30,451 nucleotides of DNA from a virus. The notes below the pieces were generated by a model, which made no database searches, had not been told where the DNA came from, and saw only the letters and a program-made list of their open reading frames with translations. The position numbers were made by a program, and so were the translations under genes. The DNA lies in IMG/VR virus record IMGVR_UViG_3300048136_000032, positions 1 to 30,451 of that record. The stretch is one strand, 5' to 3'. This document shows positions 17,641-26,794 of this stretch, piece after piece (positions within the stretch are counted from its first letter, which is position 1; each line of letters starts with the position of its first letter).

Positions 17641-19090
17641 TAAACGACATCTCCGCCTTACGTATTGGACGCCTCACTTGACCGCTAGACAATGCCTGTC
17701 GGCCTTCACCTTCGCCCTGCAATGCGTACTCCAATGCCTCGACCGGGTGACTGTATTCGTTCTTGTCTGGCTCATCGGTGTACTTCTCGCCCGACACCTG
17801 AATGCGTCGATAGCAGAACCCGCCTTGTAATCCCTTGCGAATCATCTTTGCCTTGGGGCTGATTAGGAATCGTGGCTTGCCATCCATGCACAACTCTTTC
17901 ATCGGTAGTTCAAGCGCCGCACGTCGTAAAGCAGGGTCGTTGGACAGCGTTGGCGTGCAGGGTATACCAGCCGCTCGCATGATCTTGAATGGTGTGTCGG
18001 CATTCGCTTGGTTCTTGTTGTCGCCCGAGGGATCGCCCCAGCCACGGAACCTGATGTGAGGATAGTTAGCGTCTATGTATCGCTTTAGGCTTGGCGCAAA
18101 GTCTACAGCTCCGCTGTCGGTTAGGCAGAATTCGTCGAAGCAAATCCAGCGACCGAGCGAATCACGTTGTAGAAACGCACAAGCTGGTGTCCGACCGAAA
18201 TCAAAACCCAATACGACAGGTGTATCGTTATTAGGAATGTAAAGATCAGGCAAGCAGTGAATAGAGTCAGTGTATAGAGGATGTACCGGCTTACCGCTTG
18301 AGACGAAGCCATACTCGTTAGCCAGATTGACCTTAATCCAGTCATCGCTTTTGCCCTGTAGCCCTCGCCGGTAGTAGTCCTCTGGAAGGTTGTGGAGGTT
18401 CTCGGCTTTGGTATTGAGATACCAACCATCTCCCTCCCGATAGACGCCACCCGGTTGTCGATGAAACTTCCAATCTTCCGGCCTTTCCTCTTCAGCCAAT
18501 CGGTAATACCAGTGATCTTCGTCTGGGGCATTTGAATCTCCTATCATTCCGTAGTGTGTAGGGCGAACGCCTTCCTTCATCGACGGGTATCGACCACATC
18601 TAAGGTCGAGCATGTCCACAACGCTCTTGGAATGCTCCTTGGCCTCGTTTAGCCATACCCATGTAGTCTGGATACCTCGTGCCTTCTTGACGTGATCAGG
18701 GCGATCAAAGGCGATGAAGATGACTTCACTGCGTACGGTCGTGCCATCCTCTAACTTGAACTGGATCTTATGCGTGGGCGGTTCCTTGTTGCCCTGCTTG
18801 AACTCCCCCAGCTCCCCATGCACCTCTAACCAGTCTTTAATGGTCGTGGAGAATAGTTCGCTGTAAGTATTACGTGCCGCAATGATCCGACTGAGCCGAA
18901 CACCGTAGTTAGGATGCGTCTCCCGAGTGACTGGTGCTTGTTCGCACATCAGCTCTAGCATTTTAAGGATTACTTGGACTGTCTTGCCGGAGCCTAGTGG
19001 CCCCATGATGAAAGAGTTGCGCGCCCTACAATCGGCGAACTCTTCGAGAACTTTACCGGGTGGCTTGGTTATATATTCAATCTTCGCCAT
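17630..19090 (-). CDS. terL: Terminase large subunit
   Basis: This is a 486-residue packaging motor. Walker A is GPLGSGKT at residues 30-37. The Walker B-like strand is TTWVWLNE at 142-149, with Asn in place of the usual Asp before Glu149, a variant I recall in this podovirus subgroup. The nuclease half has GFDFGR (D297), WGDPSG (D353) and a C-terminal SHPVEALEYAL helix. It cuts concatemeric DNA and pumps it into the prohead through the portal. The start overlaps the small-subunit gene by 14 bases. Confidence 0.95.
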   Translation of the reverse strand: MAKIEYITKPPGKVLEEFADCRARNSFIMGPLGSGKTVQVILKMLELMCEQAPVTRETHPNYGVRLSRIIAARNTYSELFSTTIKDWLEVHGELGEFKQGNKEPPTHKIQFKLEDGTTVRSEVIFIAFDRPDHVKKARGIQTTWVWLNEAKEHSKSVVDMLDLRCGRYPSMKEGVRPTHYGMIGDSNAPDEDHWYYRLAEEERPEDWKFHRQPGGVYREGDGWYLNTKAENLHNLPEDYYRRGLQGKSDDWIKVNLANEYGFVSSGKPVHPLYTDSIHCLPDLYIPNNDTPVVLGFDFGRTPACAFLQRDSLGRWICFDEFCLTDSGAVDFAPSLKRYIDANYPHIRFRGWGDPSGDNKNQANADTPFKIMRAAGIPCTPTLSNDPALRRAALELPMKELCMDGKPRFLISPKAKMIRKGLQGGFCYRRIQVSGEKYTDEPDKNEYSHPVEALEYALQGEGEGRQALSSGQVRRPIRKAEMSFSVF

Positions 19091-19334
19091 CGAAGCGCTT
19101 ACGCTGAACCTGAATGACTAAATCACCACCTTCTGGGCCGGTTAGCTCGGTCGATTTGAGATCTGGCAGGAACTTTGATGTCAGCTTTAGATTCAGCTCT
19201 GCCGCTGTACGCATACGTTGAATGTCCAGAGCGTCATATTCTTCCTCTGGCTCCCTCAATTTGTTAGCGATCTCAATGACTTGCTCTATTAGCTTTTGCT
19301 TAGAAAGGAAGTCTCTCAACCCCTCTTGTCGCAT
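19077..19334 (-). CDS. Probable terminase small subunit
   Basis: With the ATG at 19334 the product is 85 residues. The frame extends upstream to 19448, but that part lies inside another small gene, and this ATG falls 4 bases after that gene's stop. The protein has two helices (residues 5-50) and a tail with KSTELTGPEGGDLVIQV, resembling the oligomerisation and C-terminal parts of small terminases. It directly precedes terL. No helix-turn-helix is visible in it, though a 60-residue HTH protein is encoded just upstream. Identity rests mainly on position. Confidence 0.55.
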   Translation of the reverse strand: MRQEGLRDFLSKQKLIEQVIEIANKLREPEEEYDALDIQRMRTAAELNLKLTSKFLPDLKSTELTGPEGGDLVIQVQRKRFDGED

Positions 19335-19338
19335 CTGT

Positions 19339-19509
19339 CTATTGAGCTGTGCCTTTGTCTTTGCCACCGAATATCCTATCCCAGTTATCAGCGTATGCCT
19401 TCCGGGTTTCTGCTGTTGATTTACGCGCTCTTGATCCTTTCCCGCCATTCCACTCTGGAAAGTGTCTGTCCCGCGTTTCCTTGTCTAGTTTACCACGTTG
19501 ATCAGGCAT
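19339..19509 (-). CDS. Small conserved phage protein (56 aa)
   Basis: The ATG at 19509 opens a 56-residue frame ending in TAG at 19339. The C-terminal segment RKAYADNWDRIFGGKDKG matches a short motif (RKAYxxNxDxIFGKK) I recall in many tailed-phage small proteins of unknown function. It overlaps the end of the upstream HTH gene by 8 bases and is followed by the small terminase ATG after 4 bases. This frame also explains why the small-terminase frame has a spurious upstream extension. Confidence 0.65.
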   Translation of the reverse strand: MPDQRGKLDKETRDRHFPEWNGGKGSRARKSTAETRKAYADNWDRIFGGKDKGTAQ

Positions 19510-19948: not shown

Positions 19949-20143
19949 CTAGTGACTGGGGTAATGTTTCGCCATCTCTAACGCTCGTGCATTCTCTAGC
20001 TTGTTGATAGCACATAGATCGAGATACTCGGACTCCGTGAGTCCTTTCAAACGCCCGATGAGTACACATACCTGATCGAGGTTCTCAATGTGCTTATAGC
20101 CGTTACGAGTGCAGAACATGGCTCGCTTCACTGTAGTACACAT
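19949..20143 (-). CDS. Small hypothetical protein at head of late block
   Basis: With the ATG at 20143 the product is 64 residues. A longer frame starts at 20176 inside the promoter, and an internal ATG at 20119 is also possible. The chosen start begins 6 bases after an extended -10 element, so the message may be leaderless from this ATG; the 20119 start would leave a short leader. The protein has four cysteines and a helical C-terminus (LTESEYLDLCAINKLENARAL). No family recognised. It is the first leftward gene of the late block. Confidence 0.45.
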   Translation of the reverse strand: MCTTVKRAMFCTRNGYKHIENLDQVCVLIGRLKGLTESEYLDLCAINKLENARALEMAKHYPSH

Positions 20144-20149
20144 TCGATT

Positions 20150-20176
20150 AGTATAACACAATTTGTCTGCTTGCAA
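20150..20176 (-). promoter_or_regulatory. Leftward promoter with extended -10 element
   Basis: On the leftward strand TGTTATACT gives a TGnTATACT extended -10 (20150-20155 for TATACT). A TTGCAA hexamer lies 15 bases upstream (20171-20176), short of the usual 17. The extended -10 can compensate for this. It would drive the small late-block genes and perhaps everything through terL. Confidence 0.5.
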
Positions 20177-20222: not shown

Positions 20223-20259
20223 CTCATTAAATTAATTTTAAAAAACAAACAAAAAGTGT

Positions 20260-20288
20260 TTGACTTTTGATTTTAGGTATGCAATCAT
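20260..20288 (+). promoter_or_regulatory. Putative rightward promoter
   Basis: TTGACT (20260-20265) is a good -35 element. At 17 bases the -10 would be AATCAT, which is poor, so the promoter may need an activator. A 5-bp hairpin (20298-20313, GGCTG/CAGCC) lies in the resulting leader, just before the ribosome-binding site AAGGGAGAAG. Confidence 0.35.
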
Positions 20289-20334
20289 CTGTTCATCGGC
20301 TGGGGACACAGCCATTAACCAAGGGAGAAGTAAC

Positions 20335-20484
20335 ATGCAAAACAATCAAGTAATCTACAAAGCAAGCAAACTCTGGATCAAGGCAGAGGTAGTAAAAAAA
20401 GTAGAGGGTGGTTACATCTTAAACTGCGGAAGCACCAAAGGGTTCTTCGTAGAAGATGAACGGGTTAAGAAGGTGGCCGCGTAA
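20335..20484 (+). CDS. Small rightward protein (49 aa), possible regulator
   Basis: The ATG at 20335 follows the strong leader AACCAAGGGAGAAG. The frame is open further upstream, but that part lies in the promoter. The 49-residue product is basic and beta-rich (LWIKAEVVKKVEGGYILNC, residues 13-31), resembling a small SH3- or OB-like barrel. No family recognised. Its stop TAA lies in the loop of a GC hairpin. It is first in a three-gene rightward operon. Confidence 0.55.
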   Translation: MQNNQVIYKASKLWIKAEVVKKVEGGYILNCGSTKGFFVEDERVKKVAA

Positions 20485-20490
20485 GCGGCC
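20475..20490 (+). promoter_or_regulatory. GC hairpin with stop codon in loop
   Basis: GGCCGC (20475-20480) and GCGGCC (20485-20490) form a perfect 6-bp stem around the loop GTAA, which contains the TAA stop of the first rightward gene. Only TTTA follows, so it is more likely an RNA stabiliser or attenuator than a full terminator. The downstream 13 bases are repeated at the next gene end. Confidence 0.5.
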
Positions 20491-20510: not shown

Positions 20511-20774
20511 ATGAAAAAATTAGATCCAGTAGTCATCCACAAGATCGCTTCAGATACACAGGCGAATGACCACACCAACGCCCTGACTCGATTGGCGGCG
20601 GCTTTAGAAGAAAACTTTTTGGTTGATCGTCTTCTTGATATTGACGGCAAGCACTATACCGCTGGCGAGATGACTCAAGCCCTTCGGCAAGAGCGACAAA
20701 GCTACAGAAGCTGGCTCATGGCTCAAGCGCGAGTAGCTTACGAAAACTTTGACGAGATCCAAGCCGCGTTTTAA
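20511..20774 (+). CDS. Hypothetical helical protein (87 aa)
   Basis: This 87-residue protein is almost wholly helical (HTNALTRLAAALEENFLVDRL, then TQALRQERQSYRSWLMAQA). It is preceded by a GGGAGAAAGGAA ribosome-binding stretch. No family recognised. It is second in the rightward operon and, like its neighbour, ends with its TAA in a hairpin loop. Confidence 0.55.
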   Translation: MKKLDPVVIHKIASDTQANDHTNALTRLAAALEENFLVDRLLDIDGKHYTAGEMTQALRQERQSYRSWLMAQARVAYENFDEIQAAF

Positions 20775-20779
20775 GCGGC
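20763..20779 (+). promoter_or_regulatory. Second GC hairpin with stop codon in loop
   Basis: GCCGC (20763-20767) and GCGGC (20775-20779) flank a 7-base loop ending in the TAA stop. The 13-mer beginning with the last two bases of this stop (20773-20785) is identical to 20483-20495, so the two gene ends look duplicated. Confidence 0.45.
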
Positions 20780-20789
20780 CTTTACTATT

Positions 20790-20993
20790 ATGACAAGAGC
20801 AATTAATGACGACTACCTAATGACTCACCAAGAGATTGCCGATGAGCTAGGTATCACCCGGACTAGGGTGGCTCAGTTAGAAAAGAGCGCCCTGACTAAG
20901 CTCCGGGATCGTTTCATCCTTCGGCAGTATTATCTGGACTACGTTAGTTCCAGCTCTGAATCTCGTAATCAGGATCAAGTTCCTTACGCCTAA
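20790..20993 (+). CDS. Stand-alone sigma-70 region 4-like DNA-binding protein
   Basis: In this 67-residue protein, residues 11-38 (MTHQEIADELGITRTRVAQLEKSALTKLR) closely follow sigma-70 region 4.2, including the recognition helix TRxRVxQLExxALxKLR. No regions 2 or 3 are present, so it cannot be a full sigma factor. It may touch -35 DNA or compete for the RNA polymerase beta flap. The ribosome-binding site before 20790 is weak. Its last 50 bases overlap the opposite NinG-like gene tail to tail. It is a candidate switch from early to late transcription (inference). Confidence 0.65.
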   Translation: MTRAINDDYLMTHQEIADELGITRTRVAQLEKSALTKLRDRFILRQYYLDYVSSSSESRNQDQVPYA

Positions 20994-21342
20994 CCTCATC
21001 GCGGTAATGCGCCGCGATATCCTTCCTCAATAGTTTATTAGTCTTGTATATCTCGTTACTGACTAGCCGCAAATGATCCATGTGATCATCGCCAAACATC
21101 TCGCGCAACCAATCATGGAACGCTATCGGCTGTTCAGTGAACCATCGGTGACAGTAGTGGCAGAGGCTTACTGCATTACCCGGACCCGGCCCCATACTCC
21201 AGCGCAATCGCTTATTACGTCGGCCAAAAATATGAGCGCACTCAAGCCTATCTTGTTTGTGGCAGTGCATACACTTCCCATCGCGTAGCCTTACCGCCTT
21301 GCTAAACCAAATGTCCGCTTGATCTCTCTTGACTGCCATCAT
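20944..21342 (-). CDS. NinG-like HNH endonuclease
   Basis: The start is taken at 21342 (or 21339), just after a GAGGG ribosome-binding site; the open frame extends to 21399. The product is 132 residues. Counting from 21342: C24-x2-C27, then ECAHIFGRRN (His36) and CHYCHRWF (C60-x2-C63), a zinc-finger HNH pattern, followed by a helix. Phage NinG/Rap proteins and small HNH nucleases share this layout, acting on Holliday or branched DNA in recombination. Its 3' end is antisense to the sigma-like gene over 50 bases. Confidence 0.68.
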   Translation of the reverse strand: MMAVKRDQADIWFSKAVRLRDGKCMHCHKQDRLECAHIFGRRNKRLRWSMGPGPGNAVSLCHYCHRWFTEQPIAFHDWLREMFGDDHMDHLRLVSNEIYKTNKLLRKDIAAHYRDEVRRKELDPDYEIQSWN

Positions 21343-21478
21343 CGGCCCTCGTGTATTGACGCTCTCGGAGTATAGCCTTCTCGCTGTTCCCGCAGTCACA
21401 TGACCAGCCTTCCAGCTTGTGAGGGTATTCGCTCTTAAACTGGGGGACCATGGTTTTAAAGCACTCAGTGCAAGCCAT
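21302..21478 (-). CDS. Small zinc-ribbon protein
   Basis: The ATG at 21478 gives 58 residues. The pattern C-T-E-C (residues 3-6) and then C-D-C near 28-30 suggests a zinc ribbon. The frame extends upstream to 21514, but that lies inside the previous gene. It overlaps the upstream gene by 14 bases and the NinG-like start by about 40. Function unknown; a DNA- or RNA-binding accessory is plausible. Confidence 0.5.
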   Translation of the reverse strand: MACTECFKTMVPQFKSEYPHKLEGWSCDCGNSEKAILRERQYTRADDGSQERSSGHLV

Positions 21479-24722: not shown

Positions 24723-24935
24723 CTATCTGTATGGCAGTTCAAGAAACGACTCAAAGTCCATCTTAAAGTAATCAGCTAACCTGACTATCTTCGTTAGGGT
24801 TGAGTCCTCGCTGTTGCGCCACCGTTGCACTGTCATCTCTGACACGTCGAAGTCTTTCGCCATCTGGCGGTTAGACACACTGCATTGCTTCTGCGCGGCG
24901 CGAATAGATTGCCCGATGTCAAAATGGAATGTCAT
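24723..24935 (-). CDS. Cro/CII-like helix-turn-helix regulator
   Basis: The start is taken at 24935, overlapping the SSB stop by 17 bases. The frame reaches 25034 but only inside SSB. In the 70-residue product, residues 22-41 (NRQMAKDFDVSEMTVQRWRN) form a clear XRE-type helix-turn-helix, followed by a short dimerisation-like C-terminus. It may act on the operator at 26380 or on the divergent region. It is last before the 327-base gap. Confidence 0.7.
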   Translation of the reverse strand: MTFHFDIGQSIRAAQKQCSVSNRQMAKDFDVSEMTVQRWRNSEDSTLTKIVRLADYFKMDFESFLELPYR

Positions 24936-26393: not shown

Positions 26394-26440
26394 ACCAAAC
26401 ACTTTACGTTATGTTTTAGGAGAATGCAAACAGTTTATGT

Positions 26441-26794
26441 TTATGAATAAGTCCACATGACCGGAGTGGTCTTTCGATTGTCAACGTGTACGAAGGTTCT
26501 AGCAACACCGATAGAGAACCCCATATTGATTGCCTCATGCACGATGTTCATACGCTCAAAGCCGTTAGACACAGCGATGTCAGCCGCGAGACCTTGGCAA
26601 TGATAGCCTGTACCGGGTTCGGCTTTACGCGCTTCAGAAGGGTGGGTTGCATCCCTGTAGCCAGAAGTAATGCGAAACGGGAATCCTACCTTTTCACGCA
26701 ACTCATCGAGCTTTACTAGAAACTCATGGTCCATCTCGTTGCGATTCGTGTGGGTACAGTTGAACTCTTCGAGTCTGAAAAACTTGTAGGTCAT
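26441..26794 (-). CDS. Endolysin, M15 peptidase family
   Basis: This 117-residue protein has SGYR (44-47), HCQGLAADI (H65 and D72) and FVHVD (H103 and D105), which reproduce the zinc-ligand and catalytic layout of M15 D-alanyl carboxypeptidase or L-Ala-D-Glu endopeptidase enzymes. It has no signal peptide, so it relies on the holin. It cleaves cross-linking peptides of peptidoglycan at lysis. It is coupled (ATGA) to the holin gene and is the last gene of its leftward block. Confidence 0.9.
   Translation of the reverse strand: MTYKFFRLEEFNCTHTNRNEMDHEFLVKLDELREKVGFPFRITSGYRDATHPSEARKAEPGTGYHCQGLAADIAVSNGFERMNIVHEAINMGFSIGVARTFVHVDNRKTTPVMWTYS

Follow-up and report, generated by a model that had tools for sequence, protein, structure and literature searches.

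The gene SIG4, at positions 20790..20993 on the plus strand of the window (the whole 30,451-nucleotide viral record analysed here), encodes a 67-aa stand-alone helix-turn-helix (HTH) protein resembling region 4.2 of sigma-70, and we judge it, with a probability of roughly 0.58, to be a DNA-binding regulator near the early/late junction that acts via the host sigma70 polymerase and promotes late transcription. The translation of the open reading frame (ORF) is MTRAINDDYLMTHQEIADELGITRTRVAQLEKSALTKLRDRFILRQYYLDYVSSSSESRNQDQVPYA, with the HTH at residues 12-39 and a C-terminal helix extending to about residue 60. This is a known domain in a new arrangement: a stand-alone half-domain at such a position appears to be undescribed, and the literature searches, which covered freely accessible papers, turned up no account of a phage regulator consisting of region 4.2 by itself. 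Counted for the regulator reading are (i) the match to the HTH half of the sigma domain, (ii) a profile that aligns with SigA and RpoD, (iii) the dN/dS values, (iv) the position shared by 70 loci, (v) the lack of a T7-type polymerase, (vi) the confident HTH of the AlphaFold model, with sigma-4 domains among its main fold matches, and (vii) the recurrence of the family in two other phage groups. Counted against it are the lack of a co-varying DNA target, four loci without SIG4, the near-neutral charge of the protein, weak Foldseek E and VIA Z values, and the copies in two further groups of relatives, which lie beside replication genes.

The earlier note had described a stand-alone protein retaining only the −35-type HTH of sigma-70, and this description is borne out by the Pfam family Sigma70_r4 (PF04545), which matches SIG4 with E=1.2e-9 and 38 bits against a curated gathering cut-off of 24.1. 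Residues 11-39 correspond to profile positions 21-49 of 50, i.e., to region 4.2 only, and the match falls short of the whole domain (4.1 plus 4.2). The ORF starts ~10 residues upstream of the HTH, such that region 4.1 would fall before the start codon. The same Pfam cut-off is also exceeded in 14/14 related genomes. NCBIfam sigma models match SIG4 with E-values down to 2.5e-6, every one under its full-length cut-off. A PDB search with the SIG4-family profile returned region 4 of RpoH, SigA and RpoD at E 6e-8 to 1e-6, and the single sequence likewise returned all three. The KorA/TrfB repressor family (PF16509) scores under its cut-off (18.9 vs 26.7 bits).

The AlphaFold model of SIG4 contains a confident HTH (block pLDDT 89-94) and a less certain C-terminal helix; for the whole model, the mean pLDDT is 74.8 and the pTM 0.47. 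Foldseek matches are weak (best E 0.22) and VIA Z values are under 5, for which the small size of the domain is the expected cause. Comparison with sigma-70 region 4, which had been proposed as a check, gave a divided answer: sigma-4 domains are among the main fold matches, but NarL-type and YlxM-like HTH proteins are listed with them, DeoR too, and neither the Foldseek nor the VIA list tells these apart from sigma-4. Sequence profiles do separate sigma-4 from the NarL-type HTH. YlxM (UPF0122) and further sigma-4-like HTH proteins that stand alone may share the fold (Z 4.0 and rmsd 6-7.7 for 1s7o and 1xsv), but YlxM-type proteins are longer, were found by structure only, and belong to a family unlisted in the Pfam scan of SIG4.

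The residues T12, E15, I16, A17, R24, E31 and K37, which are invariant in the family, are sigma70 framework positions. Compared with region 4 of the primary sigma factors RpoD and SigA (PF04545), SIG4 has the region 4.2 HTH and the framework residues, but it lacks region 4.1 as well as regions 1-3, is a 67-aa stand-alone phage protein, and differs at two of four positions that we compared by alignment with E. coli sigma70. We take R24 and Q29 to be the equivalents of R584 and Q589, both kept, and T25 and A28 to be those of E585 and R588, both changed. R24 is invariant across the family and Q29 is retained in the lineage of the window, whereas the positions of T25 and A28 vary among relatives, whose recognition helices fall into the classes TRSRVAQ, SRVRVRQ, SRQRVKQ and SRQTIRI.

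These residues bear on the suggestion that SIG4 is a −35 competitor or repressor, binding −35 boxes that resemble TTGACA in early or host promoters, which would then be shut off. The sigma-4.2 fold reads the −35 box in sigma factors, and the retention of R24 and Q29 is consistent with such a role, but canonical TTGACA is an unlikely target, and unlikely to be the one shared by the family, because the equivalents of E585 and R588 are T25 and A28 and vary among relatives. The suggestion is therefore weakened, and we consider it unlikely. The lack of region 4.1 would leave simple DNA binding unaffected, so SIG4 may act as a repressor at another site.

The region 4.1 half of sigma normally docks on the beta flap of RNA polymerase. 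It has also been suggested that SIG4 redirects the host polymerase by replacing or displacing host sigma region 4 at the flap, as a co-activator, an anti-sigma or one half of a split sigma. Its sequence does resemble region 4.2 of primary sigma, and homologues in the second group of relatives retain the final C-terminal helix, LRxFLDH-like, as in primary sigma. In agreement with the claim that the window holds no RNA polymerase gene, the T7-type polymerase family (PF00940) was silent in the genomes G000-G014 and again, with Pantoea phage LIMEzero (9.5e-88) as a working positive control, in six re-tested records; all of these records are classed as linear and may be fragments. However, docking on the flap in the manner of sigma is disfavoured because SIG4 has no 4.1 half (the profile match begins at position 21), which supplies a large part of the surface that binds the flap. 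A split sigma is disfavoured because region 2 (PF04542, Sigma70_r2) was found in none of the same 15 genomes, whose records may be incomplete, while the controls were positive. The split sigma SigO/RsoA is similar in that a region 4-type half resides on its own polypeptide, but it has a separate region 2 subunit, of which no counterpart was found in those 15 genomes, and SIG4 differs from it in lacking region 4.1. Action on the host polymerase by these routes thus appears improbable. What remains is a predicted DNA-binding regulator with a specificity of its own.

SIG4 is a real gene under strong purifying selection, with dN/dS of 0.02-0.23 against 22 relatives over codons 1-51, to which the analysis was limited as the part free of ninG sequence. 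Because the serine-rich tail shares its DNA with the 3' end of ninG on the opposite strand, conservation of the tail is not creditable to SIG4 alone. A first search yielded 79 environmental viral loci, which divide into three groups: L001-L030 are close relatives, L031-L075 form a second group at ~50% identity, and L076-L079 make up the third. A second search used the neighbouring gene g19949 (19952..20143, minus strand), which avoids selecting on SIG4 itself, and returned 80 loci. SIG4 is present in 70/80, while 6/80 end before its place and 4/80 (L199, L209, L217 and L218) span the place without it, giving 70/74 usable loci. No prophage or host copies were found in a scan of GTDB genomes, and tblastn against phage records gave no annotated cultured relatives, returning only sigma factors and low-coverage unannotated fragments. 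For the SIG4-like protein of group 2, no close cultured relatives were found; the group 2 helicase is 48% identical to that of Pelagibacter phage HTVC115P. Gene order in the largest relative (L019, 38 kb) matches that of the window, and no integrase is recognisable among its listed ORFs. Two divergent copies of a 678-aa virion protein and tail gene region, one per end (L085:2598-7987 and L086:15310-18187), were observed in the 38 kb relative, and it is possible that this two-copy relative is a chimera or a joined assembly.

In all 70 loci carrying it, SIG4 occupies the interval that separates the nin/exonuclease block from the terminase genes. In 37/70 it is inverted, as in the window, with NinG and g19949 on either side; in 33/70 it shares the strand of its neighbours and of the late genes and is flanked by g19949 and the g19502/terminase block. 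The placement of SIG4 on an opposing operon thus holds for the lineage of the window and fails for the 33 co-directional loci. The co-directional order, as in L160, is exo, g21465, g21302, NinG-like, g19949, leader hairpin, small ORFs, SIG4, g19668, g19502, TerS and TerL; in this lineage, too, SIG4 is preceded by the shared leader hairpin, and the terminase genes come after it in the same orientation. The two arrangements imply that SIG4 keeps the junction between early (recombination) and late (packaging, structure) genes through relocation with a flip. A part in the early-to-late switch, as the earlier note had proposed, fits this position in either orientation, and it is because of the position that the late switch is the likeliest process for SIG4.

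In the window, the gene next to SIG4 on one side encodes a NinG/Rap-like HNH endonuclease (20944..21399, minus strand; PHROG 5034, E=7e-15), the 3' end of which has 50 bases in common with the 3' end of SIG4. Over 20944-20993 the two genes are convergent and overlapping, space for a terminator is absent, and their transcripts should run antisense into each other. On the other side, g19949 encodes a 64-aa protein of unassigned function that heads the late leftward unit and is 84-98% identical in most relatives.

SIG4 occupies the place that the Q gene has in lambda, where the nin region gives way to the late genes. The likeness is one of gene position; Q is an antiterminator, and no similarity of SIG4 to it was seen. 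The Ltr genes occupy an early/late boundary position (PMC13123087). SIG4 resembles the Ltr, RinA and ArpU late regulators of Gram-positive phages in lying at this boundary beside terminase (70 loci), but those are small basic proteins of ~130 aa, whereas SIG4 is about half that size, near neutral (9 K/R, 10 D/E) and of sigma-4.2 sequence. It also differs in being on the opposite strand in the lineage of the window. A possible link in sequence consists of weak matches of the SIG4 family to PHROG 36, 'transcriptional regulator' (E 0.14 to 9e-4).

The neighbourhood also suggests a different role, in which the HTH binds a phage DNA site such as pac/cos or an origin, rather than a promoter, and SIG4 is an accessory of packaging or replication. 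Terminase genes adjoin SIG4, residues 4-61 match PHROG 57 (terminase small subunit) weakly (E=0.0044), and family members from groups 2 and 3 are found with replication genes (helicase and polymerase) instead of terminase. However, a separate candidate gene for the small terminase subunit, assigned by position only, adjoins terL (19077-19448), and the sigma-family matches to SIG4 are far stronger, which makes an accessory role quite improbable. Somewhat less probable still is that SIG4 is a passenger of a variable small-ORF cassette, of the host takeover or anti-defence type, outside phage regulation. The cassette ends with SIG4 and turns over in its other ORFs, and a DNA methyltransferase-like ORF is found there in some loci, but SIG4 itself is the one fixed gene, present in 70/74 usable loci and found without the cassette in three relatives (L012, L023 and L028), where it directly follows the divergent gap.

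The window comprises an otherwise leftward genome with three small plus-strand genes, of which SIG4 is the last in the sole rightward unit. The first (20335..20484, plus strand, 49 aa), present in only some relatives, and the second (20511..20774, plus strand, 87 aa), in frame with SIG4, are variable cassette genes. The TAA stop of the second ORF lies 15 bases upstream of the SIG4 start, and translation of the two may therefore be coupled. An in-frame fusion of SIG4 with the upstream ORF was considered and rejected, the upstream sequence being unrelated or absent in relatives. No Shine-Dalgarno sequence is present at the SIG4 start of the window (20770-20793); many relatives have GGGG a few bases before the ATG. 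The candidate rightward promoter (20260..20288, plus strand), TTGACT-17-AATCAT, does have the poor −10 attributed to it previously. A scan for consensus promoters alone gave a count no higher than in shuffles, and the rightward promoter region is conserved in relatives. In the operon leader, a hairpin (20298..20313, plus strand), GGCTG-GGGACA-CAGCC, is conserved in both gene arrangements with a nearly unchanged stem (GGCTG-N6-CAGCC), and no Rfam match was found to mark it as a known structured RNA.

A perfect AACA-N5-TGTT operator occurs exactly twice in the window, at the −35 of the rightward promoter (20248..20260, plus strand) and at the early leftward promoter (26429..26441, minus strand; AACATAAACTGTT), a count that is weak by itself because shuffles reach two in 10/100. 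With a matrix built mainly from relatives, the top four sites in the window are these two and two that were held out of the matrix: a second operator at the early leftward promoter (26398..26410, minus strand; AACGTAAAGTGTT; rank 3) and an operator-like site (20155..20167, minus strand; GACAAATTGTGTT; rank 4). The latter adjoins the −10 of the leftward late promoter (TATACT, preceded by TGT; 20150..20155, minus strand), which is conserved in relatives. Sites are thus found at the rightward, late leftward (with one mismatch allowed) and early leftward promoters, and they too are conserved. The late promoter and the operators stay largely constant while the recognition helix of SIG4 changes across relatives, and SIG4 was rejected as the first choice of operator reader. 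The best candidate is a 70-aa Cro-like HTH protein (24723..24935, minus strand), the recognition helix of which, EMT(V/I)xRWR, is near-constant; because the sites ignore the changes in SIG4, this putative Cro-like protein probably reads AACA-N5-TGTT. The promoters near 20150 and 26430, which had been suggested for footprinting with SIG4, share this operator and are hence a better fit for the Cro-like protein. No DNA element co-varying with the recognition helix of SIG4 was found, and the classes into which the g19949 promoter and the rightward promoter fall do not follow the helix classes.

We propose that SIG4 is a regulator built, as its sequence suggests, from the HTH of region 4.2, plus the helix after it, of a primary-type sigma factor. 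Since its promoter shares an operator with the early promoter, SIG4 is probably expressed early. SIG4 would most likely act at the junction on one or more phage promoters used by the host sigma70 polymerase, and, judging from its position, would favour the move to late (terminase, structural) transcription, as Q, RinA and Ltr do. A broader reading, which we put forward tentatively and regard as doubtful, is that SIG4 belongs to an undescribed class of late-switch factors, carried by phages that lack a polymerase of their own, in which sigma region 4.2 alone, deprived of the half that docks on the flap, sends host RNA polymerase to late promoters, a class that would occur in at least three phage groups in differing contexts and would be flipped against the genes it controls in the lineage of the window. 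Few models of late-gene timing in small phages without their own polymerase are known outside laboratory phages. A 67-residue, near-fixed junction regulator with natural variation in its recognition helix offers a direct handle on late timing in an uncultured phage group, and SIG4 also allows a minimal test of which portion of sigma region 4 suffices for promoter action.

Two further features of the cassette were observed. Hairpins at the ORF joints (20475-20490, GGCCGC-GTAA-GCGGCC, and 20763-20779, GCCGC-N7-GCGGC), whose loops contain or adjoin the stop codon, occur in the cassettes of most relatives and nowhere else in the window; they are terminator-like in some relatives and look like joints for cassette exchange. 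Cytosine-methyltransferase-like ORFs, judged by eye and starting MKVLDLFAGIGGF, are present at the SIG4 junction in three loci (L156:605-1636, L199:2943-3965 and L209:3601-4365), which suggests that the junction is a site for anti-restriction cassettes.
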